Positions 37,360 through 46,556 of a DNA stretch of 64,000 bases are shown in pieces. The notes under the pieces are model-generated. The model searched no databases, had not been told where the DNA came from, and was given only the letters and a program-made list of their open reading frames with translations. The translations under genes and the position numbers were made by a program. The DNA is from Roseibium marinum (GTDB lineage: Bacteria; Pseudomonadota; Alphaproteobacteria; Rhizobiales; Stappiaceae): positions 62,001-126,000 of the forward strand of contig NZ_PPCN01000008.1 in NCBI RefSeq assembly GCF_002906165.1, read 5' to 3'. Each line of letters starts with the position of its first letter. Position 1 is the stretch's first letter.

Positions 37360-37986
37360 TTATCTGGCAGGCGGGCGCTTCCACAAAAAGCATAGATCCG
37401 TTTTTTGCGCCTCTTCAAACTGTTGAATCTCCGGAGCAAAGGCGAGAGTTTGTTCTATGTGGTCCGCTCCATCCATCAGGAGCTGTTTTCTTGCAGGATT
37501 AATTTCGAAAAAAACACTTATCTCGTCACTCGTCAAAATCGTTTGTTTTCCAAGATCGATTGTCAGGTTGGTACGATCCACCTGCAATACTTTTTGAATG
37601 AGCGCATCGACTTCTTTTTCAGGGAGCGTTATCGCAAGCAATCCGTTTTTCTCGCATTTCCCGAAAAAGATCCCCGCGAAGCTGCGTGCAATAATAGCAC
37701 GGATACCGATCTGCATCAGGTCCCAGACCGCATATTCCCGGCTGGACCCGCATCCGAAATTCGAAGCGCAGACGGGGAAACGTGCAATGTCATACGAAGC
37801 CTGATTGAGAACGAAGCCTGTTCGCTTTCCGCCCGTTGCATCAAACCGGAGATCGTGGAAAGCACCGCCTGCCAATCCTTCGCGGTCGATGCGCTTGAGA
37901 ATTTGCTTCGGCATTATCCCATCGGTATCGACATTCGGCTGGGGCAGCGGGGCCGCTACGTCCGTTTCGACAAGAAACGGTTTCAT
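37360..37986 (-). CDS. leuD: LeuD-like isopropylmalate dehydratase small subunit (orphan)
   Basis: A 208-residue small subunit of the aconitase-superfamily enzyme that isomerises isopropylmalate in leucine synthesis. 'PNVDTDGIMPKQILK', 'FPVCASNFGCGSSREYAVWD', then 'GIRAIIARSFAGIFFGKCEKNG' are the LeuD motifs. I start at 37986, ten bases after GGAGG, rather than three codons earlier. No leuC is nearby; directly upstream lies a truncated ABC permease remnant. It may be a second copy working with a distant large subunit, possibly on another hydroxy-acid. The C-terminal part is divergent from standard LeuD. Confidence 0.85.
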   Translation of the reverse strand: MKPFLVETDVAAPLPQPNVDTDGIMPKQILKRIDREGLAGGAFHDLRFDATGGKRTGFVLNQASYDIARFPVCASNFGCGSSREYAVWDLMQIGIRAIIARSFAGIFFGKCEKNGLLAITLPEKEVDALIQKVLQVDRTNLTIDLGKQTILTSDEISVFFEINPARKQLLMDGADHIEQTLAFAPEIQQFEEAQKTDLCFLWKRPPAR

Positions 37987-38038
37987 TGATCGCATTCCTC
38001 CATCAGCCCGCGTACATCAATGAGGTAGCCTGCCACTG

Positions 38039-38617
38039 CAGCGGCTCGGAACCGACCAGATCGGCCGTGATTACCTGTCCCGGCTGATGTCGGGAGGGCG
38101 CGTCGCCCTGCTGGTCGCACTGACCGGCGTCAGCGTCTCCATTCTCGCCGGCACCCTGCTCGGACTGGTCGCCGGCTATGTCGGAGGCTGGCTCGACGAC
38201 GCGATCATGCGCCTGACGGATGCACTGATGGCGATCCCGGAACTCCTCCTGATCGCAATTCTCGTGCTCACCTTCGGCAAGGAGATCCTTTCCCTGTCGC
38301 TGATCGTCGGGATTGTCTGCACGCTTGGCGTGGTGCGCGTGGTGCGCGCCAAGACAATCGCCATTGCCGCGCTCGATTTCGTGCGCGCGGCGGAACTTCG
38401 CGGTGAACGACCCGGTTTCATCCTGCTGAGCGAAATTGCTCCCAACCTGCTCGGGCTTCTCGCCGTCGAATTCGCCATCCGCTGCTCTTCCGCAATTCTG
38501 AAAATTTCGGCCCTGTCCTTCCTCGAACTCGGCATCAGTCAGCCGACGCCCAAATGGCCCCGGTTCCGGCACCGCAATCCCTTTCCGCCTGAGGCCGGAT
38601 TTCTCCCGCACAAGTAA
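38039..38617 (+). pseudogene. Truncated DppC-type ABC permease remnant
   Basis: The frame encodes the middle of a peptide/nickel ABC permease: 'LGTDQIGRDYLSRL', helices, an EAA-loop-like 'LDFVRAAELRGERPGFILLS' and 'SFLELGISQPTPKW'. The first 90 or so residues and the C-terminal third of a normal DppC (about 290 residues) are missing; after 'PTPKW' the sequence becomes unrelated (RFRHRNPFPPEAG). The homology begins right behind the leuD start region, without a promoter or start, so this looks like a fragment left by rearrangement. Confidence 0.85.
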
Positions 38618-38802
38618 AACGGCCCCGAGAGGCGTTTCAACAAAGCCCCACCGGTTGAACTCAGAAATTGAGTTGAATTTCCTTGCAACCGGAATATAGT
38701 AAAAATGTCGCAATACCCGCTTTGATGGCGCGGAGAATTCCTTTTGTGTTCGCCGCGCTCGACATGACCACAGCCAACATGAAAGGGGGTGAACAAGAGC
38801 GT

Positions 38803-39030
38803 ATGGACAACAACGAGTTGACTCAAACGGAGTTGCTGAAACGGCTTGGCGAGAGGGTTGCTCTGCTGGCCAGGATGCAAAGCGAGGCAGCGAGGCTGCT
38901 CTCTGAGAGGGCAGCGGGCTTCTTCGGTCTTCAAGAAAGGCTGGCGAAGGAATTTAATCGCGCGTCCGATTTGACCCAAAAGCTCGCCGAAAGGCTGGAT
39001 GCCAGGCTTAAGGCCAGGATGGCAAACTAG
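38803..39030 (+). CDS. Hypothetical small coiled-coil protein
   Basis: A 75-residue, almost wholly helical protein: MDNNELTQTELLKRLGERVA, 'ARLLSERAAGFFGLQERLAK' and 'LTQKLAERLDARLKARMAN'. The heptad-like pattern suggests a coiled coil. A GGGGG stretch lies about 11 bases upstream of the ATG. I do not recognise a family, and the coding status is uncertain. It lies between the permease remnant and the AT-rich block. Confidence 0.4.
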   Translation: MDNNELTQTELLKRLGERVALLARMQSEAARLLSERAAGFFGLQERLAKEFNRASDLTQKLAERLDARLKARMAN

Positions 39031-39512
39031 CATTCCGCGAGCGCTGAGCCCGATCATTCCCCAGCATCAGTCGCCTCTCGATTGTCCGTCCCCAGCAAGA
39101 TCCCCGGCAACAATCCGGCTTTTCCCCAGACCGGATTGTCAGGACATCGCACGACAGGGCTTGAACGCGAAAGAAACGGCACGGCACACCCTGAGATTAC
39201 AGCCGCCGCACGTTTCCGAACCCTTGGCGGAACATGACACAGCCGAACCGCCAAGGGCAGAGAACCGATAGAATATTCTCTATCTTTACTTTATACATAA
39301 AGTAAAGATAGACATCTATTGCAAAAATTGTTTCACAAAGCGTGTTAAAAATAATCTTATTATAAATTTATTATTGAACAATAATCAAAAAATGCTACCA
39401 TCTTAAAAATATCCAAAAATACACAGATAAAATAATATAGATTGTAATAAATTCAAAAATAACGGCCTTTCCGTACACTGAAAATTTGATTGCAGTGATC
39501 GGACACTTGTTT
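39031..39512. other. AT-rich intergenic block at the accessory segment edge
   Basis: No gene is supported. From about 39271 to 39480 the DNA is strikingly AT-rich compared with the rest of the window, with runs such as AAAAATAATCTTATTATAAA. This is a usual sign of foreign or promoter DNA. A perfect hairpin lies inside (39280-39311). Confidence 0.6.
39280..39311. repeat. Perfect 14-bp inverted repeat (hairpin)
   Basis: CTATCTTTACTTTA, loop TACA, TAAAGTAAAGATAG. Both arms match without mismatch. It sits at the boundary between GC-rich DNA and the AT-rich block. It could be a transcription terminator, an operator or part of a mobile-element end. Confidence 0.75.
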
Positions 39513-39785
39513 GCGCCCGTAGCTCAATGGCAAAAGGAAGGAATGGAGACCGTTTTGCTTCTAGACACCTCTAAATTGAGCATGTTGCTTGCAGGCTTTG
39601 CTATGTCAGCTGGGGAGCGCGAGTAAGGTTTGCGTCATGCCCGTTCTCTCGACTCCTTCGATTGAAGATGCATCTGGTAGGGAGTTTGGACATGACGTTT
39701 AGCGGCAAAAACGGCTTGATTTCATCCCAAGAGCACCGGACTCCTAACCCGGAGGTTGCGGGTTCGAATCCCGTCGGGCGTACCA
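39513..39785 (+). pseudogene. tRNA-Arg(CCU) gene split by a 199-bp insertion in the D loop
   Basis: The 5' part (39513-39530) gives the acceptor strand GCGCCCG, TA, D-stem GCTC and AATGG. The 3' part (39730-39785) gives D-stem GAGC, the anticodon arm with loop CTCCTAA (anticodon CCU at 39743-39745), the T arm GCGGG-TTCGAAT-CCCGT, acceptor strand CGGGCGT, A and an encoded CCA. The acceptor strands pair fully across the gap (one G-U). Between them are 199 bases with no tRNA-like structure. The anticodon stem has one A-C mismatch (31-39). Unless the insert is removed from the RNA, this gene is non-functional. Confidence 0.75.
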
Positions 39786-39933
39786 GAACGCGAAAGACTT
39801 TCGCACGAGCGGCAAACGCCGCGCAGCAGGCTTCAGAGTGGGTTTGCGACATCAACGCCAAATCCGGTCCGCGATTGTGAGTGATTTGCGGGGGGAAGCT
39901 TGGCACCATTCTGAGGGAAAGTAGGAGAAACCA

Positions 39934-40101
39934 ATGGAGTCCTCAATTCAAGACACAGCGGTGACAAAAAACGAAGTGGCCGAGCGTGACGGCGACACGC
40001 CTGCCTACGAGCCGCCGAAAGTGAAATCGCTGGCCCAGGGCGATTTATTGAGCGCCGTGAAAAAAGGGTCGAAGTTCCCCGCACGCGGCTTCTCTGGCTG
40101 A
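39934..40101 (+). CDS. Putative RiPP precursor peptide (55 aa)
   Basis: A 55-residue peptide starting MESSIQDTAVTKNEVAERDG, with AGGAG nine bases before the ATG. The middle 'YEPPKVKSLAQGDLLSAV' (residues 25-42) has the YxxPx-hydrophobic pattern that PqqD-like recognition domains bind in lasso-type leaders. The C-terminal end KKGSKFPARGFSG would be the core. It is followed by a strong stem-loop and then by a PqqD-like gene and radical SAM genes, the standard order for a peptide modification cluster. It has no cysteines, so a thioether product is excluded. The precursor role is inference from size, motif and position. Confidence 0.72.
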   Translation: MESSIQDTAVTKNEVAERDGDTPAYEPPKVKSLAQGDLLSAVKKGSKFPARGFSG

Positions 40102-40120
40102 CCTGCCGGAGAAGAACACC

Positions 40121-40145
40121 GGAGGCCCGGTTCCCCCGGGCCTCC
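40121..40145 (+). terminator. Stem-loop between precursor and modification genes
   Basis: GGAGGCCCGG, loop TTCCC, CCGGGCCTCC form a perfect 10-bp GC-rich stem, 19 bases after the precursor stop. There is no T tract, so partial termination or mRNA protection is likely. It would give more precursor than enzyme. Confidence 0.7.
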
Positions 40146-40195
40146 ATCTCCCTGTATCGCTGCTCGATGGAATTCAGAAAATGGAGGTCGGTATC

Positions 40196-40486
40196 ATGTC
40201 AGGCGAACAAGGTACCTGGTATCCATGCCGCAGTCAGGTTACGGAATGGCGCAATGTGGGACAGGACACCTTGGTCTTGCACCTCACACTGAAGCAATAC
40301 CACATTCTCAATCATGTCGCCGGCCGGATCTGGAGCCTTTGTGACGGAACAAGGTCCAGCCGCGATATAGCAGAGGAACTGGCCCGAAACTTCAGCACTG
40401 ACGCCGACGCCGTTCTAAGCGACGTCACGGACACGCTGAAGGGTTTCGGCACGATGGGCATTCTAGACGCGGGGAGCTCATCATGA
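40196..40486 (+). CDS. PqqD-like RiPP recognition element protein
   Basis: A 96-residue PqqD-family protein that would bind the precursor leader and present it to the radical SAM enzymes. 'HLTLKQYHILNHVAGRIWSL' followed by 'CDGTRSSRDIAEELARNF' is the PqqD pattern of strand, helix and helix. I start at the ATG 40196, eight bases after GGAGG, rather than five codons earlier. It overlaps the next gene by four bases (ATGA). Confidence 0.85.
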   Translation: MSGEQGTWYPCRSQVTEWRNVGQDTLVLHLTLKQYHILNHVAGRIWSLCDGTRSSRDIAEELARNFSTDADAVLSDVTDTLKGFGTMGILDAGSSS

Positions 40487-41844
40487 CCGGCCACGGTTAT
40501 GTCACCCCGCCCCTGGCATGGCTCGAACACGGCGGCGACACGCTCGCCCTCAGCCGCGTCAACCGGAGATGGGCAGTCCTGAATCCGGCCGCGGCGGCGA
40601 TTATCCAGTCTTGCGGCCGGCCTGGTGCAACCGCGCAAGCCATCCATTCGCGCTTCGAGGCACGTTTCGGCCCGGTTCCGGGTGACCGCTTCGTGGCCTG
40701 GCTGGATGATCTGGAGGCGACCGGATTGCTGGTTCGCAACGGCCAGGTTTCAAAAACCGCTCAAGAACCGTCACCGGCATCGTACAGTGTCGTGCATGCC
40801 TATATCGAGATGCTGGCGCGCTGCAACCTGCGCTGCGTTCATTGCTTCATGGGCGGTGCGCCGGAGCGGACTGAAATTCTGACCGTTCGGGAAATCAAGT
40901 CGATCATCGATGACCTGCAGGCGGCAGGCGGCCGCTTCGTCACCCTTTCCGGCGGCGAACCCGTTCTTCATCCCGATTTTCCAGAGATCGCCCGTTACGT
41001 CACCGATCAGGGGCTTTCGGGAACCGTGATCAGCAACGGCACCACCCTCCGGCCCGCCCTGCTGAAGCTCATAGACACGCTTGGCTTTAATCTTGCCATA
41101 AGCCTTGACGGCGTGTCGGACGCGGTAAACAAAAAAATCCGGGGCACAACGGCGCGGCGGATCATTCGGGTCATCGATCAGGCACTCGAGACGCTCGGCC
41201 CGGACCGGTTCACGCTGTCCTTCACACCGGTCAAATCCAATCTGAATGAGATTGAACCGCTGTTGGAATTTGTCGAGGCACGCGGCATTCGCAGGGTGAA
41301 CATTTCCGTCTATGAGGAAGTCGGACGGGCAAGCGCGCATGCAAGCGAGTTGAGTTTATCGGAGGAAGACCGGGTCCAGTTGATGGAGGTCCTGTTCAGG
41401 CGCGCGATCGATCTCATCGGCAAGACCGAGATCGACCTGAACGACACCCGAAACATCCTCAGCCAATTCATTCCCGATCTGTGCGACGACAGCGTTCACC
41501 CCTTGTGGCGCAGCGTGCGGATCACATCGTCAGGAGAGGTTTTTCCGGGTTCGTTCGGTGCCGTTGAGCATTTTCGGCTTGGCAATATCCGGGAGACACC
41601 CTTTTCAGATCTGCTGAAGAGCAAGAGACTGAGCGAACTTCGCGCAATGCTGGGAAGACGTGTCGAAAGGACACCCGAATGCAAGAATTGCGAATGGCGT
41701 CAGATTTGCCGGGGGGGCAGTGTGGCGGCCGCCTTTTGCGCGACCGGTGAGATCAATGCGCCCGATCCGCATTGCCGCGGATATCGGGCGGTCTTTCCCA
41801 AGGTGGCCGTTGCGCTTGCCAACCGGGCACCGGGGCCGGTGTAA
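40483..41844 (+). CDS. Radical SAM/SPASM peptide-modifying enzyme with N-terminal PqqD-like domain
   Basis: A 453-residue enzyme. Residues 1-85 form a second PqqD-like domain ('LSRVNRRWAVLNPAAAAIIQ'). The radical SAM core has the cluster motif CNLRCVHC (Cys114, 118, 121), 'VTLSGGEPVLHPDF' (SAM-binding GGE) and 'NLAISLDGVSD'. The C-terminal SPASM domain has 'TPECKNCEWRQICRGGS' and a final 'DPHCRGY', supplying ligands for auxiliary clusters. This is the layout of PqqE-like enzymes that form C-C or C-X links in peptides. Its start overlaps the PqqD gene, and its stop overlaps the kinase-like gene (TAATG). The modification made is not predictable. Confidence 0.92.
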   Translation: MTGHGYVTPPLAWLEHGGDTLALSRVNRRWAVLNPAAAAIIQSCGRPGATAQAIHSRFEARFGPVPGDRFVAWLDDLEATGLLVRNGQVSKTAQEPSPASYSVVHAYIEMLARCNLRCVHCFMGGAPERTEILTVREIKSIIDDLQAAGGRFVTLSGGEPVLHPDFPEIARYVTDQGLSGTVISNGTTLRPALLKLIDTLGFNLAISLDGVSDAVNKKIRGTTARRIIRVIDQALETLGPDRFTLSFTPVKSNLNEIEPLLEFVEARGIRRVNISVYEEVGRASAHASELSLSEEDRVQLMEVLFRRAIDLIGKTEIDLNDTRNILSQFIPDLCDDSVHPLWRSVRITSSGEVFPGSFGAVEHFRLGNIRETPFSDLLKSKRLSELRAMLGRRVERTPECKNCEWRQICRGGSVAAAFCATGEINAPDPHCRGYRAVFPKVAVALANRAPGPV

Positions 41845-42839
41845 TGCGCGGCGTCGTCCAGATCAAGGATCCCGGTCGACTTGCCGCTGACCTCTTCCGG
41901 CGGCTTCCGGAAAGGCTCGATCTGGACATCTACGGGACAAGGATCGTTGTCAAGGCAACCTCAAGCCGGGCACTGCGGCGCCTTCGTCTCGTCTACGGTG
42001 CATTCCTCGCCAGGGATCAAGGACCGGCGGACGCCCGTCTGGCACTCGTCGAACTGGACCATGCGCCGCATGGCTGGCTTGCAGAAGCTCTGCGGCCGGA
42101 CGACCCCCTCCGGATCGGCGGCGGCCATTTCCTCGTCGCGGACTGGCTCCCGTTCGCACTGTCGTTGCGCGACGAAACCCTATTGCATTACTACGCCTCC
42201 AAATTCCTCAGATTGCATCTGGTCGCCTGCCATCAGCCTGATCACCTGACGCTCCACGCCGCCTCGCTGGACGTGGGCGGCGGACACGGCATCCTGCTTG
42301 TGGGAGAGGCCGCCAGCGGCAAGACAACCCTGACGCTGCAATTGCTGGACAGGGGTATGTCCTTCTGCTCCGATGACACCACGGTGATCCGCCGCCGGGA
42401 CCGCAAATGCGTGCCGTTCCCGCTGGCGTTCATCCTGCGGGGAGGCCCGGACGGCGAAGCCCCGGACATACCCGGAGTAAGAGAGCGAAAACCGGATCTG
42501 GAGCTGCTCGACGAGCCTCGGTGGCTGGTTCAGCGCAACGGGGACGCCGGCAAGGCCTTCACTCCGGTTGCCATCTTCTTTCTGCATTCCAGAGCTGACC
42601 GGCAGCCCGGGTGTCCTGTTCCCATGAACTCGGCGGAAGCCGCCATGGAACTGCTGCGCAACAAGGTGGTCCCCATGGGCCTCGTGCATGAGGACGTGGC
42701 TGTCATGACCGCCGACTTCCATCTGGTCTGCGATCTCGCCAACAGCGCACAATGTCTTTCCGTCAATTCGACCGATCTTGCCCGCACACGCGACAGTTTG
42801 CTGTCGCATATTTCAGGTTTTGCCGCGGTACCGGCCTGA
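41844..42839 (+). CDS. HPr-kinase-like P-loop protein of the peptide cluster
   Basis: A 331-residue protein related to the HPr Ser kinase/phosphorylase C-terminal domain. 'HLTLHAASLDVGGGHGILLV' leads into the P-loop GEAASGKTT (residues 154-162), followed by 'LLDRGMSFCSDDTTVIRRRD', the characteristic Asp-Asp of HPrK. The N-terminal 140 residues are specific to this subfamily. Such proteins occur in lasso and other RiPP clusters, where some phosphorylate a C-terminal serine of the precursor; here the candidate precursor has Ser at its next-to-last position. Start ATG 41844 overlaps the upstream stop. Confidence 0.85.
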   Translation: MRGVVQIKDPGRLAADLFRRLPERLDLDIYGTRIVVKATSSRALRRLRLVYGAFLARDQGPADARLALVELDHAPHGWLAEALRPDDPLRIGGGHFLVADWLPFALSLRDETLLHYYASKFLRLHLVACHQPDHLTLHAASLDVGGGHGILLVGEAASGKTTLTLQLLDRGMSFCSDDTTVIRRRDRKCVPFPLAFILRGGPDGEAPDIPGVRERKPDLELLDEPRWLVQRNGDAGKAFTPVAIFFLHSRADRQPGCPVPMNSAEAAMELLRNKVVPMGLVHEDVAVMTADFHLVCDLANSAQCLSVNSTDLARTRDSLLSHISGFAAVPA

Positions 42840-42849
42840 GGAGATAAGC

Positions 42850-44256
42850 ATGGCTCATATTACCCTCGTCAACGCCGTGCTCCCCAGCGCCGTGAATGTG
42901 CCTCCCCAGGGTCTTCTCTACCTGACGGCGGCACTTGAAGCCGCGGGCTTCGAGGTGGAAATCCGTGACTATCAGCTCTGCGGCGACCCCGAGCCGTGGA
43001 CCCCGGAAACCCTCGCGCATTTCGTCCGGGGCTCGGCTCCGATCATCGGATTCAGCTGTATGAGCTATATTCTGCCGCTGATCTGCCGGGCCAGCGCACT
43101 GATCAAAAGCGAACGGCCGGACGTCCGGATCGTTCTGGGCGGCATCGGCCCCGCCGGCGCGGGCGCAACCCTGCTTGACTACTGCCCCGACATTGACGCC
43201 ACCGTTATCGGCGAGGGTGAACGCACGATCGTGGACCTGGTCCAGCGATGGTCCGATGCTCCAAGGGACACTTCCGCCTTAAAGGACGTCAACGGTCTGC
43301 ATGTCCGTCTTGGCCGCCAGGTGGTCACCACGCCCGCGCGCGAGCGCATCCGGTCCATGACGGATCTGGATCCACCGGCGTATCACCGGGTCGATTTCTC
43401 CCGCTACCGGCTGGTCGACAGCCAGTTTGGGCGCGGCTGCCCCTTTGAATGCACATTCTGTGACATCGCTCCCTATTGGAACCGGCGCAACGTGCACAGG
43501 CCCATGGAACATTATCTGGACGAGCTCGAATGGCTGGTGAAGGAGATGGGCGCGAAGGACATCTTCATTATCGACGACACTTTCGTCCTGTCGCGCAAAA
43601 TGATCATGGGCTTTTGCCATGGGATCATCAGCCGGGGCATGAAGTTCGAGTGGGGATGTTATGCGCGCGTCGACCTCATAGACGCTGAACTTATGGAGAC
43701 GATGGCCGCCGCCGGCTGCCGGAAAGTCTTTTTCGGTATCGAAACAGGATCTGACCGGGTGCTGGAAACCATCGTCAAGTCAACCACCGTGGATCAGTGC
43801 AGCCGAATGGTGAAAATGGCGCTCGATCATGTGCCGTTCGTCACGGCATCGTTTGTCTGGGGGTTTCCGGACGAGACGTATGAGGAGCTGAAAGACACGG
43901 CCTTTTTCCTCCTCTATATGGCGGCGCTGGGCGCCTCGCCCCAGTTGAACCTGGCCTTGCCCTATGCGCTCAGCCCTCTTTACCGAAACTATCGCGATCG
44001 CATCAGGTTCGATCCGGACCGATCGTCCCAGCTTCAGTTTTACGAGGGCGACAAGACATGGCTCTGTGAGATGATCGCCGCAAGGCCGGACCTGTTCTCT
44101 GTCTTCTATCATTTCCCCACACCCGAGCTGCAAAGGAAATGGGATTACCTGGAGAAGATAGGCCTCTCGCCACACGAGCTGCAACGCGCCTATGACCATC
44201 CTCTTTCCGAACCGGCGACGGTGCCCGCAACACCGGAGGCGAGCCTTGCCATGTGA
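42850..44256 (+). CDS. B12-binding-type (class B) radical SAM enzyme
   Basis: A 468-residue enzyme. Residues 1-140 resemble a cobalamin-binding Rossmann domain ('PPQGLLYLTAALEAAGFEVE', 'IVLGGIGPAGAGATLL'). The radical SAM core has 'GRGCPFECTFCDI' (Cys197, 201, 204), 'DIFIIDDTFVLSRKMIMGFC' and 'VFFGIETGSDRVLETI'. Enzymes of this class methylate unactivated carbons or do other radical chemistry. GAGGAG precedes the ATG. It ends 11 bases inside the next gene. It probably carries out the second modification of the peptide. Confidence 0.9.
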   Translation: MAHITLVNAVLPSAVNVPPQGLLYLTAALEAAGFEVEIRDYQLCGDPEPWTPETLAHFVRGSAPIIGFSCMSYILPLICRASALIKSERPDVRIVLGGIGPAGAGATLLDYCPDIDATVIGEGERTIVDLVQRWSDAPRDTSALKDVNGLHVRLGRQVVTTPARERIRSMTDLDPPAYHRVDFSRYRLVDSQFGRGCPFECTFCDIAPYWNRRNVHRPMEHYLDELEWLVKEMGAKDIFIIDDTFVLSRKMIMGFCHGIISRGMKFEWGCYARVDLIDAELMETMAAAGCRKVFFGIETGSDRVLETIVKSTTVDQCSRMVKMALDHVPFVTASFVWGFPDETYEELKDTAFFLLYMAALGASPQLNLALPYALSPLYRNYRDRIRFDPDRSSQLQFYEGDKTWLCEMIAARPDLFSVFYHFPTPELQRKWDYLEKIGLSPHELQRAYDHPLSEPATVPATPEASLAM

Positions 44257-46387
44257 GGAACCGCCCGTCGCCGATCCATTCGCTGATTTCGCCGGGCTGG
44301 AAGCCAAGTGGCAGAAGCGCTGGCAACTCAGCGGCTGTTTCAAGGCACGGCAAGGAGACAAGAAAGACAAGTTCTACAATTTCGACGGCGGTCCTTTCCC
44401 CAATGGCGCATTGCACATGGGACATGTGCGCACATTCGTGCTGGGCGATGTCATGGCGCGTTATCAGCGCATGCGCGGAAAAAATGTCCTGTACTGTTTC
44501 GAATTCGACGCGTTCGGGCTGCCCAACGAACTGGCGGCCGAAAAGCAGGGTGCCGCCCCCCGTGACTTGACCGCGGCGAACATCGAACGCATGCGCGGTC
44601 AGATGGTGGCACTGGGCCTGAGCTACGATTGGGACCATGTCCATAGCACTTGCGATCCGCGCTACTACAAGTGGACACAGTGGCTGTTTCTCAAACTCCG
44701 GGAAGCCGGCCTGGTTTACCGCGCCGAGGCCGATCTCAACTGGTGCAAAAGCTGCCGGACGACACTGGCGCATATCCAGGTTGAAGACGGAAATTGCTGG
44801 CGATGCGAAACGCCCGTGGAAACACGGTCTCTGACGCAGTGGTATGTGAAGCTGTCCAGATACTCCCGGCAACTGCACGACAGCCTGGGGGGCGTCTCCG
44901 GGTTCGGACCGCAGGTCAGAAATACGCTTGCGGGTTTCATGGGAGCGGTCGAAGGATATGAAATCGACCTGCCGGTCGTCGACGAGCCTGATACGGTGAT
45001 AACCGCTTTTGTGGCCGCCGACCGGGTGCGGCATCCGGCCTCTTACGTCGCCATCGCGCCGGGGCATCCGGCGGCCGGCGGAAACACCGCGCCCGGTTCT
45101 ACTGAAGACCGGTTGAAGCGGCCCCACAGCCGCGCGTCGCCACATGAGGATCATCGCACCCACGGCCATGATACCGGACGCCGCGTTCTTGACCCGCGGA
45201 CCGGGCGGACACTTCCGGTCTACGCGGCCAAGTATGTCGAAGCCGGGTTCGCCCACGGCGCAACGCTCGGTTTTCCGGATATGGATCAGCGCGACCGGAT
45301 GTTCGCCCGCACCCGAGGTATAATCGAAAGCGGCGAAACCTGCCCGGTCGAAACCGGAATGACACGGCCCGCGACCCATTTTCGCGTTCGCGACTGGCTG
45401 GTTTCTCGCCAGCGCGCCTGGGGAACGCCAATCCCGATCGTTCACTGCGAACACTGCGGAACCGTCCCCGTGCCCGACGCTGAACTTCCCGTCCTGCTGC
45501 CCGACATTCCCGCTGGCGGCCTGCGGAACGGTCTCGCCGATCTGCGGGACTTCATTTGCGTCCCGTGCCCGCGATGCGGCAATGAAGCCCGCCGCGAAAC
45601 AGATACGCTCGACTGCTATTTCGATGTCATCTGGTGCTTTTTGGCCTGCACGGGCCTCCTGGACGAGAATTTCGAGTTCCAAGCCGGGTCGTTCACCCAA
45701 TGGATGCAGGTCGACTGGTTCCACAACGGACTGGATTCGTTTTTTTACATGCATCTTTACCGGTTTCTCGGCCATGCGCTTTACGACATGGGTCTTCTTC
45801 AGGACCCGGAGCCCTTCGCCAATTATGCCGGGCACAATGTGGTTACGTTGAACGGCCGCAAGATGAGCAAGCATCACGGCAATGTCATAAGCCCGGAAAA
45901 AGTGCTCAGGTCCGCCGGTGCGGACGTCTTGCGGGTTCACGTCCTGTGGTCCGCCAATCCGAACAAGGGGTTCGAATGGTCCGATGACGGCCTTGATCGC
46001 GCCCGGGCCCTGCTGAAAACAGTATGGTCGCTGAACGAGACAGCGGTCAGAATCGGTGCACAGGCAAATGAGCCCGTTGCCGGGCAGGAGCAAACGCGCG
46101 CGTCCGGGGCGGTCCGCGCGAAGATCCGCCGCGCCGTGCGCCGGTCAACCGGTTTTCTGGAAAAATACCAGTACAGCGGTGTTCTTAACGAAATCCACGG
46201 CTTGACCCGCATCTTGAAAGCTGCCCTTGCAGAGCGGCATCCGGCCACGGACGAGGCATTCAAGGACGGCTGCGATAGCCTCATACGGTTGATCGCGCCC
46301 TTTGCCCCCCATCTGGCCGAAGAAGCCTGGAGCCGGCACGGCCGAACCACGCTGCTCGCCGCGACCACGGCCTGGCCACAAGCCTGA
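44246..46387 (+). CDS. Divergent leucyl-tRNA synthetase paralog lacking C-terminal domain
   Basis: A 713-residue class I synthetase-like protein; housekeeping bacterial LeuRS has about 860. I start at TTG 44246, six bases after GGAGG. ATP-site motifs are intact: HMGH (57-60) and KMSKH (539-543). The Zn module 'WCKSC...CWRC' and 'DAFGLPNE' mark it as LeuRS family. Differences are marked. The editing domain is about 50 residues short, and its Thr-rich catalytic peptide (TTRPDT in LeuRS) is replaced by 'TAFVAADR'. The amino-acid pocket segments (normally GGIEHAVLHLLY and DSSWYFLR) read 'FHNGLDSFFYMHLY' and 'FDVIWCFLAC'. The protein ends right after the anticodon-binding domain ('PHLAEEAW'), with no C-terminal tRNA-binding domain. 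It may activate an amino acid other than leucine, or serve as an immune copy. Confidence 0.9.
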   Translation: MPCEEPPVADPFADFAGLEAKWQKRWQLSGCFKARQGDKKDKFYNFDGGPFPNGALHMGHVRTFVLGDVMARYQRMRGKNVLYCFEFDAFGLPNELAAEKQGAAPRDLTAANIERMRGQMVALGLSYDWDHVHSTCDPRYYKWTQWLFLKLREAGLVYRAEADLNWCKSCRTTLAHIQVEDGNCWRCETPVETRSLTQWYVKLSRYSRQLHDSLGGVSGFGPQVRNTLAGFMGAVEGYEIDLPVVDEPDTVITAFVAADRVRHPASYVAIAPGHPAAGGNTAPGSTEDRLKRPHSRASPHEDHRTHGHDTGRRVLDPRTGRTLPVYAAKYVEAGFAHGATLGFPDMDQRDRMFARTRGIIESGETCPVETGMTRPATHFRVRDWLVSRQRAWGTPIPIVHCEHCGTVPVPDAELPVLLPDIPAGGLRNGLADLRDFICVPCPRCGNEARRETDTLDCYFDVIWCFLACTGLLDENFEFQAGSFTQWMQVDWFHNGLDSFFYMHLYRFLGHALYDMGLLQDPEPFANYAGHNVVTLNGRKMSKHHGNVISPEKVLRSAGADVLRVHVLWSANPNKGFEWSDDGLDRARALLKTVWSLNETAVRIGAQANEPVAGQEQTRASGAVRAKIRRAVRRSTGFLEKYQYSGVLNEIHGLTRILKAALAERHPATDEAFKDGCDSLIRLIAPFAPHLAEEAWSRHGRTTLLAATTAWPQA

Positions 46388-46479
46388 ATCCCGCCGGCTA
46401 GCATGTCGCAAAAGCCAAGGCCGCAAGACACGGCCAAACTTAAATGCCCGCCGCTCCAACGCTTTGATTCTAAAGGAAA

Positions 46480-46556
46480 TGGTGGGCCCGGAGGGACTCG
46501 AACCCCCAACCAATCCGTTATGAGCGGACGGCTCTAACCAGTTGAGCTACAGGCCC
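46480..46556 (-). tRNA. tRNA with CAU anticodon, probably tRNA-Ile2
   Basis: A complete 77-base cloverleaf on the minus strand with encoded CCA: acceptor GGGCCTG/CGGGCCC, D arm GCTC/GAGC, anticodon arm GTCCG-CTCATAA-CGGAT, T arm GGGGG-TTCGAGT-CCCTC. The anticodon CAT is at 46520-46522. The acceptor and 'TTGGT' variable region look more like the lysidine-modified Ile2 tRNA than elongator Met. It lies 92 bases after the synthetase-like gene, in opposite orientation. Confidence 0.9.

Follow-up and report, generated by a model that had tools for sequence, protein, structure and literature searches.

RRE recognition motifs have been described as mostly class-specific in a 2025 survey, which distinguishes 13 of them and assigns YxxP to lasso peptides (PMC12710340). 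In two further reports, the lasso leader consensus is given as Y/W-x-x-P-x-[LVIFA] (PMC13381572), and a YxxPxL lasso leader is acted on by a kinase together with a B1 RRE, the penultimate leader threonine serves as a processing determinant and the ring joins Gly1 to Asp8 (PMC10368454). The first of these two reports is concerned with linear polyphosphorylated peptides (LPPs), in which YxxP is combined with an RRE and an HprK-like kinase, is essential for RRE binding and operates without the use of lasso enzymes; LPP clusters are described there as widespread in Bacillota (PMC13381572). YxxP is best known from lasso leaders, yet it is not confined to lasso systems, and it should not serve on its own as a lasso marker.

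Other described systems resemble further parts of the locus reported here. PQQ and mycofactocin biosynthesis (PqqD/PqqE and MftB/MftC) likewise place a small PqqD-type RRE beside a radical SAM/SPASM maturase, and SynChlorMet (ScmC-F in NCBIfam) gathers PqqD-like, HprK-like and radical SAM/SPASM proteins in one cassette, as our locus does; to our knowledge, SynChlorMet has neither a B12 enzyme nor an aminoacyl-tRNA synthetase (aaRS). The RRE-guided RiPP cluster of aminopyruvatide, like our locus, includes a B12 radical SAM enzyme, ApyD, which makes beta-methyltyrosine (PMC10635010). The locus lies in a window (the whole stretch of 64,000 nucleotides that we analysed) from Roseibium marinum, whose genome comprises 6.06 Mb in 29 contigs, and consists of six genes on one strand, headed by an ORF for a 55-residue peptide (Table 1). 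It is probably a variant of the RRE-guided radical SAM RiPPs, with a paralogue of leucyl-tRNA synthetase (LeuRS) as the unusual addition. A peptide with such a motif is in itself ordinary for RRE-guided RiPPs and of moderate interest, and because LPPs without lasso enzymes are already in print, the combination of YxxP, RRE and HprK-like kinase is not new in itself. What is out of the ordinary is that a single peptide of 55 amino acids is accompanied by two radical SAM enzymes, by an HprK-like kinase and by a LeuRS paralogue whose pocket has been rebuilt.

Table 1. Features of the cassette and of the site that holds it, in window positions
Feature	Position	Strand	Basis or remark
Variable stretch holding the cassette	38610..46479		Homology breaks versus G012 and G362
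tRNA gene remnant (3' part; CCT anticodon read by eye)	39711..39782	+	Rfam tRNA 28.5 bits, threshold 29
Candidate RiPP precursor, 55 aa, MESSIQDTAVTKNEVAERDGDTPAYEPPKVKSLAQGDLLSAVKKGSKFPARGFSG	39934..40101	+	ORF, Shine-Dalgarno sequence, codon score, sister-cassette leader
Leader of the candidate precursor, with RRE-docking motif Y25-E-P-P28-K-V30	about residues 1-42		Predicted
Stem-loop GGAGGCCCGG-loop-CCGGGCCTCC	40121..40145		Between precursor and PqqD-like gene
PqqD-like discrete RRE, 96 aa	40196..40486	+	Pfam PqqD 42.7 bits, cut-off 23.4
Radical SAM/SPASM enzyme, 453 aa	40483..41844	+	Pfam Radical_SAM 85 bits, SPASM 33 bits
HprK-like kinase, about 331 aa	41844..42839	+	Pfam Hpr_kinase_C 31.1 bits, just under cut-off 33.3, E 2e-7
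B12-binding radical SAM enzyme, 468 aa	42850..44256	+	Pfam B12-binding 63.8 bits, Radical_SAM 66.3 bits
LeuRS paralogue, about 706 aa	44267..46387 (GTG 44267; longer ORF from ATG 44192)	+	TIGR00396, PDB alignment, 8 LeuRS
tRNA-Met	46480-46556	-	Its 3' end is the right edge of the variable stretch

The peptide ORF looks like a real gene. A Shine-Dalgarno sequence (AGGAG) stands 6 nt upstream of its ATG, its codons are coding-like and it comes first in a tight operon of six genes, the first five of which start with a Shine-Dalgarno sequence or in overlap with the previous stop: the ATG of the PqqD-like gene (40196) follows GGAGGT, that of the radical SAM/SPASM gene (40483) overlaps the PqqD-like stop, that of the HprK-like gene (41844) has one base in common with the preceding stop and that of the B12 radical SAM gene (42850) is again preceded by a Shine-Dalgarno sequence. 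The codon log-odds of the peptide ORF is 0.115 per codon. When the four larger cassette genes are cut into 55-codon pieces, these average 0.174 (sd 0.083), and the 231 window ORFs of 45-80 amino acids average -0.149 (sd 0.153); ten of the 231, the peptide ORF itself included, score at least as high as the peptide ORF. Its codon usage is nearer to that of the four larger cassette genes than to that of other ORFs of its size. The peptide matched no Pfam or NCBIfam family at E <= 1, which sets it apart from the PQQ and mycofactocin systems, and used as a query it returned five records with a best E value of 0.7, which is not meaningful.

Translation of the ORF placed Tyr25, Pro28, Val30 and Ser40 where the first-pass annotation had put them in describing a lasso-like leader. 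The sequence YEPPKV at residues 25-30 does fit the lasso consensus Y/W-x-x-P-x-[LVIFA], and to that extent the description stands; what it implies about lasso peptides is weakened by the presence of the same motif in LPPs, which do without lasso enzymes (PMC13381572). The associated idea of a recognition mode shared with lasso peptides can be kept in the same limited form, in that the 2025 survey gives YxxP to them (PMC12710340) but the LPP report shows that the motif is not theirs alone (PMC13381572). Within the window, the relaxed pattern Y..P.[LIVM].{9}[TS] occurs in just one of 511 ORFs of 30-120 amino acids, the precursor ORF, whereas the bare Y..P.[LIV] occurs in four and the strict lasso form Y..P.L.{9}T in none. 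In 200,000 shuffles of the peptide's own letters, the relaxed pattern arose in 0.17% and the bare one in 1.0%. At Tyr+15, where lasso leaders have Thr (rarely Ile or Val), the peptide has Ser40; treating this serine as the counterpart of the lasso threonine has little basis, as that threonine is a processing determinant (PMC10368454) and the protease is absent.

The tail of the peptide, KKGSKFPARGFSG, contains no Cys, as had been observed before, and no Asp, Glu or Tyr. Closure of a lasso ring needs an Asp or Glu, and because the peptide has neither after residue 37, and so none at core position 7-9, no lasso ring can close. The B2 protease family (Transglut_core3, PF13471) had no member in the one genome concerned (0 of 1), in a search that gave matches in 2 of 14 control genomes, above the cut-off in one, and none of the six operon proteins matched an Asn-synthetase-like cyclase in Pfam at E <= 1. 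Both enzymes had been called absent on first reading, and these searches agree; the earlier view that the chemistry must differ from that of a lasso peptide is likewise borne out by the genome without the B2 family and the tail without Asp or Glu, on which grounds we ruled out a lasso peptide. The motif and its spacing are what would speak for a lasso precursor served by B2 and C enzymes from elsewhere; against a genome lacking any Transglut_core3 match, a peptide lacking a ring-closing residue and an operon lacking an Asn-synthetase match, we give that explanation practically no credence. A sactipeptide or other Cys thioether was also ruled out, the peptide having no Cys.

We read the ORF as a probable RiPP precursor, the leader of which would bind the PqqD-like protein. 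Precursor, RRE and radical SAM/SPASM enzyme are adjacent, as they are in RRE-guided radical SAM RiPPs. The Pfam families found above cut-off in the operon were PqqD, Radical_SAM, SPASM, B12-binding and tRNA-synt_1; the radical SAM/SPASM enzyme also has a weak N-terminal PqqD-like segment (16.1 bits, below the cut-off of 23.4). Among the best 25 NCBIfam families for each operon protein, none reached its own cut-off. This separates the cassette from PQQ and mycofactocin (PqqD 29.5 versus 46; mycofactocin maturase 123 versus 265) and from SynChlorMet (15.3 versus 100, 17.9 versus 125, 74.6 versus 400 and 71.6 versus 400). For the B12 radical SAM enzyme, the best models were those of ApyD (NF050148, the highest, at 177.7 bits with a cut-off of 750) and BchE, both under cut-off. 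In contrast to the ApyD cluster, the operon has no Pfam match to an MNIO, a P450 or a methyltransferase, and the tail offers no Tyr. A predicted fold of the PqqD-like protein was a poor model (mean pLDDT 57) and was set aside. Because no leader protease or exporter was seen among the six operon proteins, these functions would come from the host, or the product would stay inside the cell. Between the first two genes, the 97-nt stretch with the stem-loop gave a z-score of -2.21, with 3 of 200 shuffles folding equally well, and a terminator scan found the hairpin terminator-like on the minus strand only; it is possibly an attenuator or an mRNA-processing hairpin.

Taken as a whole, we consider it probable that an acquired cassette encodes an RRE-docked RiPP precursor that is modified by the radical SAM enzymes, the kinase and the LeuRS paralogue; the individual reactions we infer from gene content, the motif and alignments. 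The PqqD-like RRE would hold the leader through Y25xxP28xV30, as suggested by the motif, the gene order and the sister cassette described below, and, in the way PqqD serves PqqE, would offer the basic tail without Cys to the radical SAM/SPASM enzyme. The B12 enzyme would C-methylate or otherwise alter a residue, perhaps Phe48 or Phe53 if we may guess by analogy with ApyD. The HprK-like kinase would phosphorylate serine, most likely Ser46 or Ser54, and the LeuRS paralogue would supply an activated amino acid other than leucine.

A different weighting of the same genes would make this an LPP-like phosphopeptide pathway, in which the kinase acting on the RRE-bound peptide is primary and the radical SAM enzymes are decorations. 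A discrete RRE, an HprK-like kinase and a YxxP leader form part of the LPP core set (PMC13381572); all three are in the window, the kinase with its Pfam match just under cut-off, and LPP systems likewise use no lasso cyclase. We nevertheless think this unlikely: a SpI-like peptidase, an NTP transferase and an MsbA-like exporter are all missing from the six operon proteins; YEPPKVKSLAQGDLLSAVK does not match the LPP leader consensus YxxPxVLxHQxIxFETxxS, with Lys at position 43 in place of Ser at Tyr+18; and LPP clusters are reported to be widespread in Bacillota. The cassette also differs from LPP systems in its two radical SAM enzymes and its LeuRS paralogue, and in the leader beyond YxxP.

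The LeuRS paralogue, which the first-pass annotation did not mention and which has a class I aaRS core, is the most unusual part of the cassette. It scores 516.3 bits with the bacterial LeuRS model TIGR00396, below the cut-off of 548.4, and a full-length LeuRS is encoded on another contig of the same genome. We compared it with eight LeuRS (from its own genome, L047 and L049-L054), two of which adjoin lptE and holA genes and the remainder of which are taken for housekeeping enzymes. The paralogue is 32-36% identical to the eight, compared with 42-67% between the other seven and the own-genome LeuRS (67% for Rhizobium, 64% for Methylobacterium and 61% for Cereibacter), and of the 181 columns invariant in the eight it retains 114, the other 67 being changed or lost. 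Like bacterial LeuRS, it has the fold, the HMGH and KMSK(H) motifs, an equivalent of Asp80, zinc Cys pairs (by eye) and an anticodon-binding domain. In contrast to them, it has lost the editing motif TTRPDT and ends at the start of the C-terminal domain, which is absent, as is an insert before KMSK found in some of the eight. Aligned with the Thermus thermophilus enzyme (1h3n), it carries M40G, F41G, Y43F, S504V, Y507C, H541S and H545M, with D80 kept. In LeuRS, these seven positions line the leucine pocket and Asp80 holds the amino group. This pattern in the alignments fits best with an enzyme that would still make an adenylate and no longer select leucine, and most likely it activates a non-leucine amino acid for the pathway rather than for protein synthesis.

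More tentatively, this retired LeuRS may have become a dedicated amino-acid-activating RiPP enzyme, whose non-leucine adenylate would be joined to the RRE-bound, radical-SAM-modified peptide, with a Lys within KKGSKFPARGFSG or one end of the peptide as the acceptor, either directly, by analogy with EpmA and EF-P, or via tRNA; we regard this as doubtful but worth stating. No aaRS paralogue is known to us to tailor a RiPP, and this one would then be the first. EpmA, MshC, VlmL and PEARL employ aaRS relatives or aminoacyl-tRNA outside translation, and none among them is known to be a LeuRS paralogue that shares its operon with the radical SAM enzymes of a RiPP. No lantibiotic-dehydratase-like ligase of the PEARL type was found by Pfam among the six operon proteins. 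A literature search, judged by titles and the starts of abstracts and with most subscription papers outside its reach, turned up no paper describing a RiPP or radical SAM cluster with an aaRS gene. If the paralogue does work on the peptide, peptide tailoring would be joined to aminoacyl-adenylate chemistry, and an engineerable class I ligase would be at hand. Self-resistance offers another role for such a gene, in which the product or a fragment of it inhibits the host LeuRS and the paralogue replaces it; aaRS copies that confer self-resistance are known for aaRS inhibitors such as albomycin and agrocin 84. An immunity copy must charge tRNA-Leu with leucine, yet here the seven pocket residues are changed and the C-terminal domain is missing, and we judge this role quite unlikely.

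The sister cassette lies in genome G019, the only other one among 45 genus genomes with a radical SAM/SPASM match at E <= 1e-25 (27% identical to the window's enzyme, E 5.6e-48). Its PqqD-like protein is 28% identical to the window's (E 1e-14) and its HprK-like protein 25% (BLASTP E 7e-16). In order and on one strand, it has a precursor-like gene with MEKDTANYTPPRIEPMSEDEL, PqqD, radical SAM/SPASM, an ORF of MRxxx repeats and the HprK-like gene; a second HprK-like gene lies farther away on the opposite strand. The Hpr_kinase_C matches of both HprK-like proteins are under cut-off, and so, here too, is the N-terminal RRE match. An 18-residue stretch of the leaders (DTPAYEPPKVKSLAQGDL versus DTANYTPPRIEPMSEDEL) aligned without gaps at a score of 43, which none of 2,000 shuffles of the window peptide reached, by a narrow margin, the best shuffle scoring 42. 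The precursor-like protein of G019 is 190-193 amino acids long, and a segment of it weakly resembles HSP20 (18.1 bits, under the cut-off of 20.8); its tail does not match that of the window peptide. Looking for conservation of Y25, P28 and the tail in related loci, as had been proposed, therefore gave a divided answer in this one divergent cassette, with the leader kept and the tail not; from a single divergent pair, the leader rather than the tail appears to be what is kept.

The repeat ORF of G019 (L020 8504-9067, minus strand), between the radical SAM and HprK-like genes, has the Shine-Dalgarno sequence AGGAGG and encodes 187 amino acids of MRxxx pentapeptide repeats, with 33 MR and 13 P-x-R-G; one PARG is present in the tail of the window peptide. 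The repeat protein is possibly a multi-core substrate. As an in-operon ORF that could be the true substrate, it would suit the view that the window ORF has a regulatory, leader-only role or arose by chance, with the real substrate elsewhere, a view for which the lack of any homologue found also speaks. Set against the Shine-Dalgarno sequence, the codon score, the place directly before PqqD and the leader match to a G019 gene in the same position, we find it very unlikely, and we keep to the reading as a precursor held by the PqqD-like RRE.

The window's PqqD-like protein, used as a query against 199 order genomes, gave 20 loci besides its own, 15 of them PQQ operons (14 assigned by a pqqE/pqqC motif, and L037, with a variant PqqC, added by eye) and five others (L033, L034, L040, L043 and L045). 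In three of these five (L033, L034 and L045), an ORF for a Y..P.[LIVM] peptide lies ahead of PqqD in the same orientation; the peptides of L034 and L045 are near-identical, come from one genus and are not independent. No such YxxP peptide was found within the stretch covered at L040 or L043. The motif SGG[LIV]DS occurs in L034, L043 and L045, which would fit lasso-type clusters. At the 15 PQQ loci, YxxP matches fall inside PqqC, inside PqqD (L030) or in a 30-amino-acid ORF before PqqD (L039), near a contig end, which is taken for the end of PqqC.

No close homologue of the peptide or the cassette was found in the genomes, samples and plasmids searched, the cassette of G019 being divergent; the genus, order, class and phylum sets overlap, and the last three are samples. 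At E <= 1e-100 the LeuRS paralogue was present in 1 of 385 class genomes and at 1e-95 in 1 of 398 phylum genomes, its own genome each time. The radical SAM/SPASM enzyme at E <= 1e-25 was confined to its own genome and G019, both in the 45 genus genomes and in the 297 order genomes, and the B12 enzyme at E <= 1e-60 to its own genome and G124 (2 of 397). The G124 protein (L019 8004-11574, minus strand) is the closest relative of the B12 radical SAM enzyme that we found, at 36% identity; it has YcaO and TfuA genes for neighbours, which suggests another kind of cluster, for a RiPP of the thioamide type with B12 chemistry. A contig scan with the radical SAM protein gave two weak matches, its patterns reaching close relatives only. 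Plasmid records gave 196 matches for the B12 enzyme, 499 for the LeuRS paralogue and 258 for the radical SAM protein, all under 60% identity at their best place. Eight of the LeuRS matches were examined for the LeuRS comparison, and one of the radical SAM matches, a Rhizobium acidisoli plasmid that the G019 enzyme also reached. The kinase and the RRE, as queries for sister cassettes, gave no match; among phages the radical SAM protein met one record, at 24%, and a viral scan with the LeuRS paralogue gave none that was confirmed. The radical SAM protein of G019, searched in 184 order genomes, found its own genome, G073 and G070. At the G073 and G070 loci and in the Rhizobium acidisoli plasmid, neither a discrete PqqD nor a YxxP peptide was found in front of the radical SAM gene, and the YxxP matches at other places there did not fit. 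The plasmid stretch (L082 3165-9056) encodes three radical SAM proteins, one of which begins, by eye, like a B12-binding protein, alongside an aldo/keto reductase; no PqqD is annotated there.

We also compared the site of the cassette across the genus. The tRNA-Met and the transporter segment are present in 45 of 45 genus genomes, three of which were compared on the left side. Homology with G012 stops near 38609 and resumes at 46480; with G362 it stops near 38550 and resumes at 46468. In both genomes, tRNA-Met is preceded by genes for an ABC permease and an ABC ATPase and by one further gene (by eye), and in G011 unrelated genes, the first integrase-like by eye, extend from the same tRNA end. 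The homology breaks and the different genes that G011 carries next to this tRNA mark the site of the cassette as variable. The cassette was probably acquired horizontally. The 3' end of tRNA-Met has three gene contents (those of the window, of G012 and G362, and of G011) and looks like a hotspot.

The tRNA remnant inside the variable stretch lies 150 bp before the peptide. It lacks the 5' strand of the acceptor stem, ARAGORN called no tRNA there, and no intact copy was found in its own genome. With the acceptor stem broken and the score just under threshold, a functional cassette tRNA was rejected, as was an att repeat shared with a tRNA elsewhere in the genome, where the only match besides itself covers 42 bases at 81% in a tRNA-Trp region. 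Beside the island, a LeuD-like ORF (by eye) occupies 37360-37995 on the minus strand in a stretch of lower G+C (0.48). A fragment of an ABC permease gene follows at 38043-38609 on the plus strand; the gene is longer in G012, and between the two matching pieces the window lacks about 1.8 kb that G012 has.
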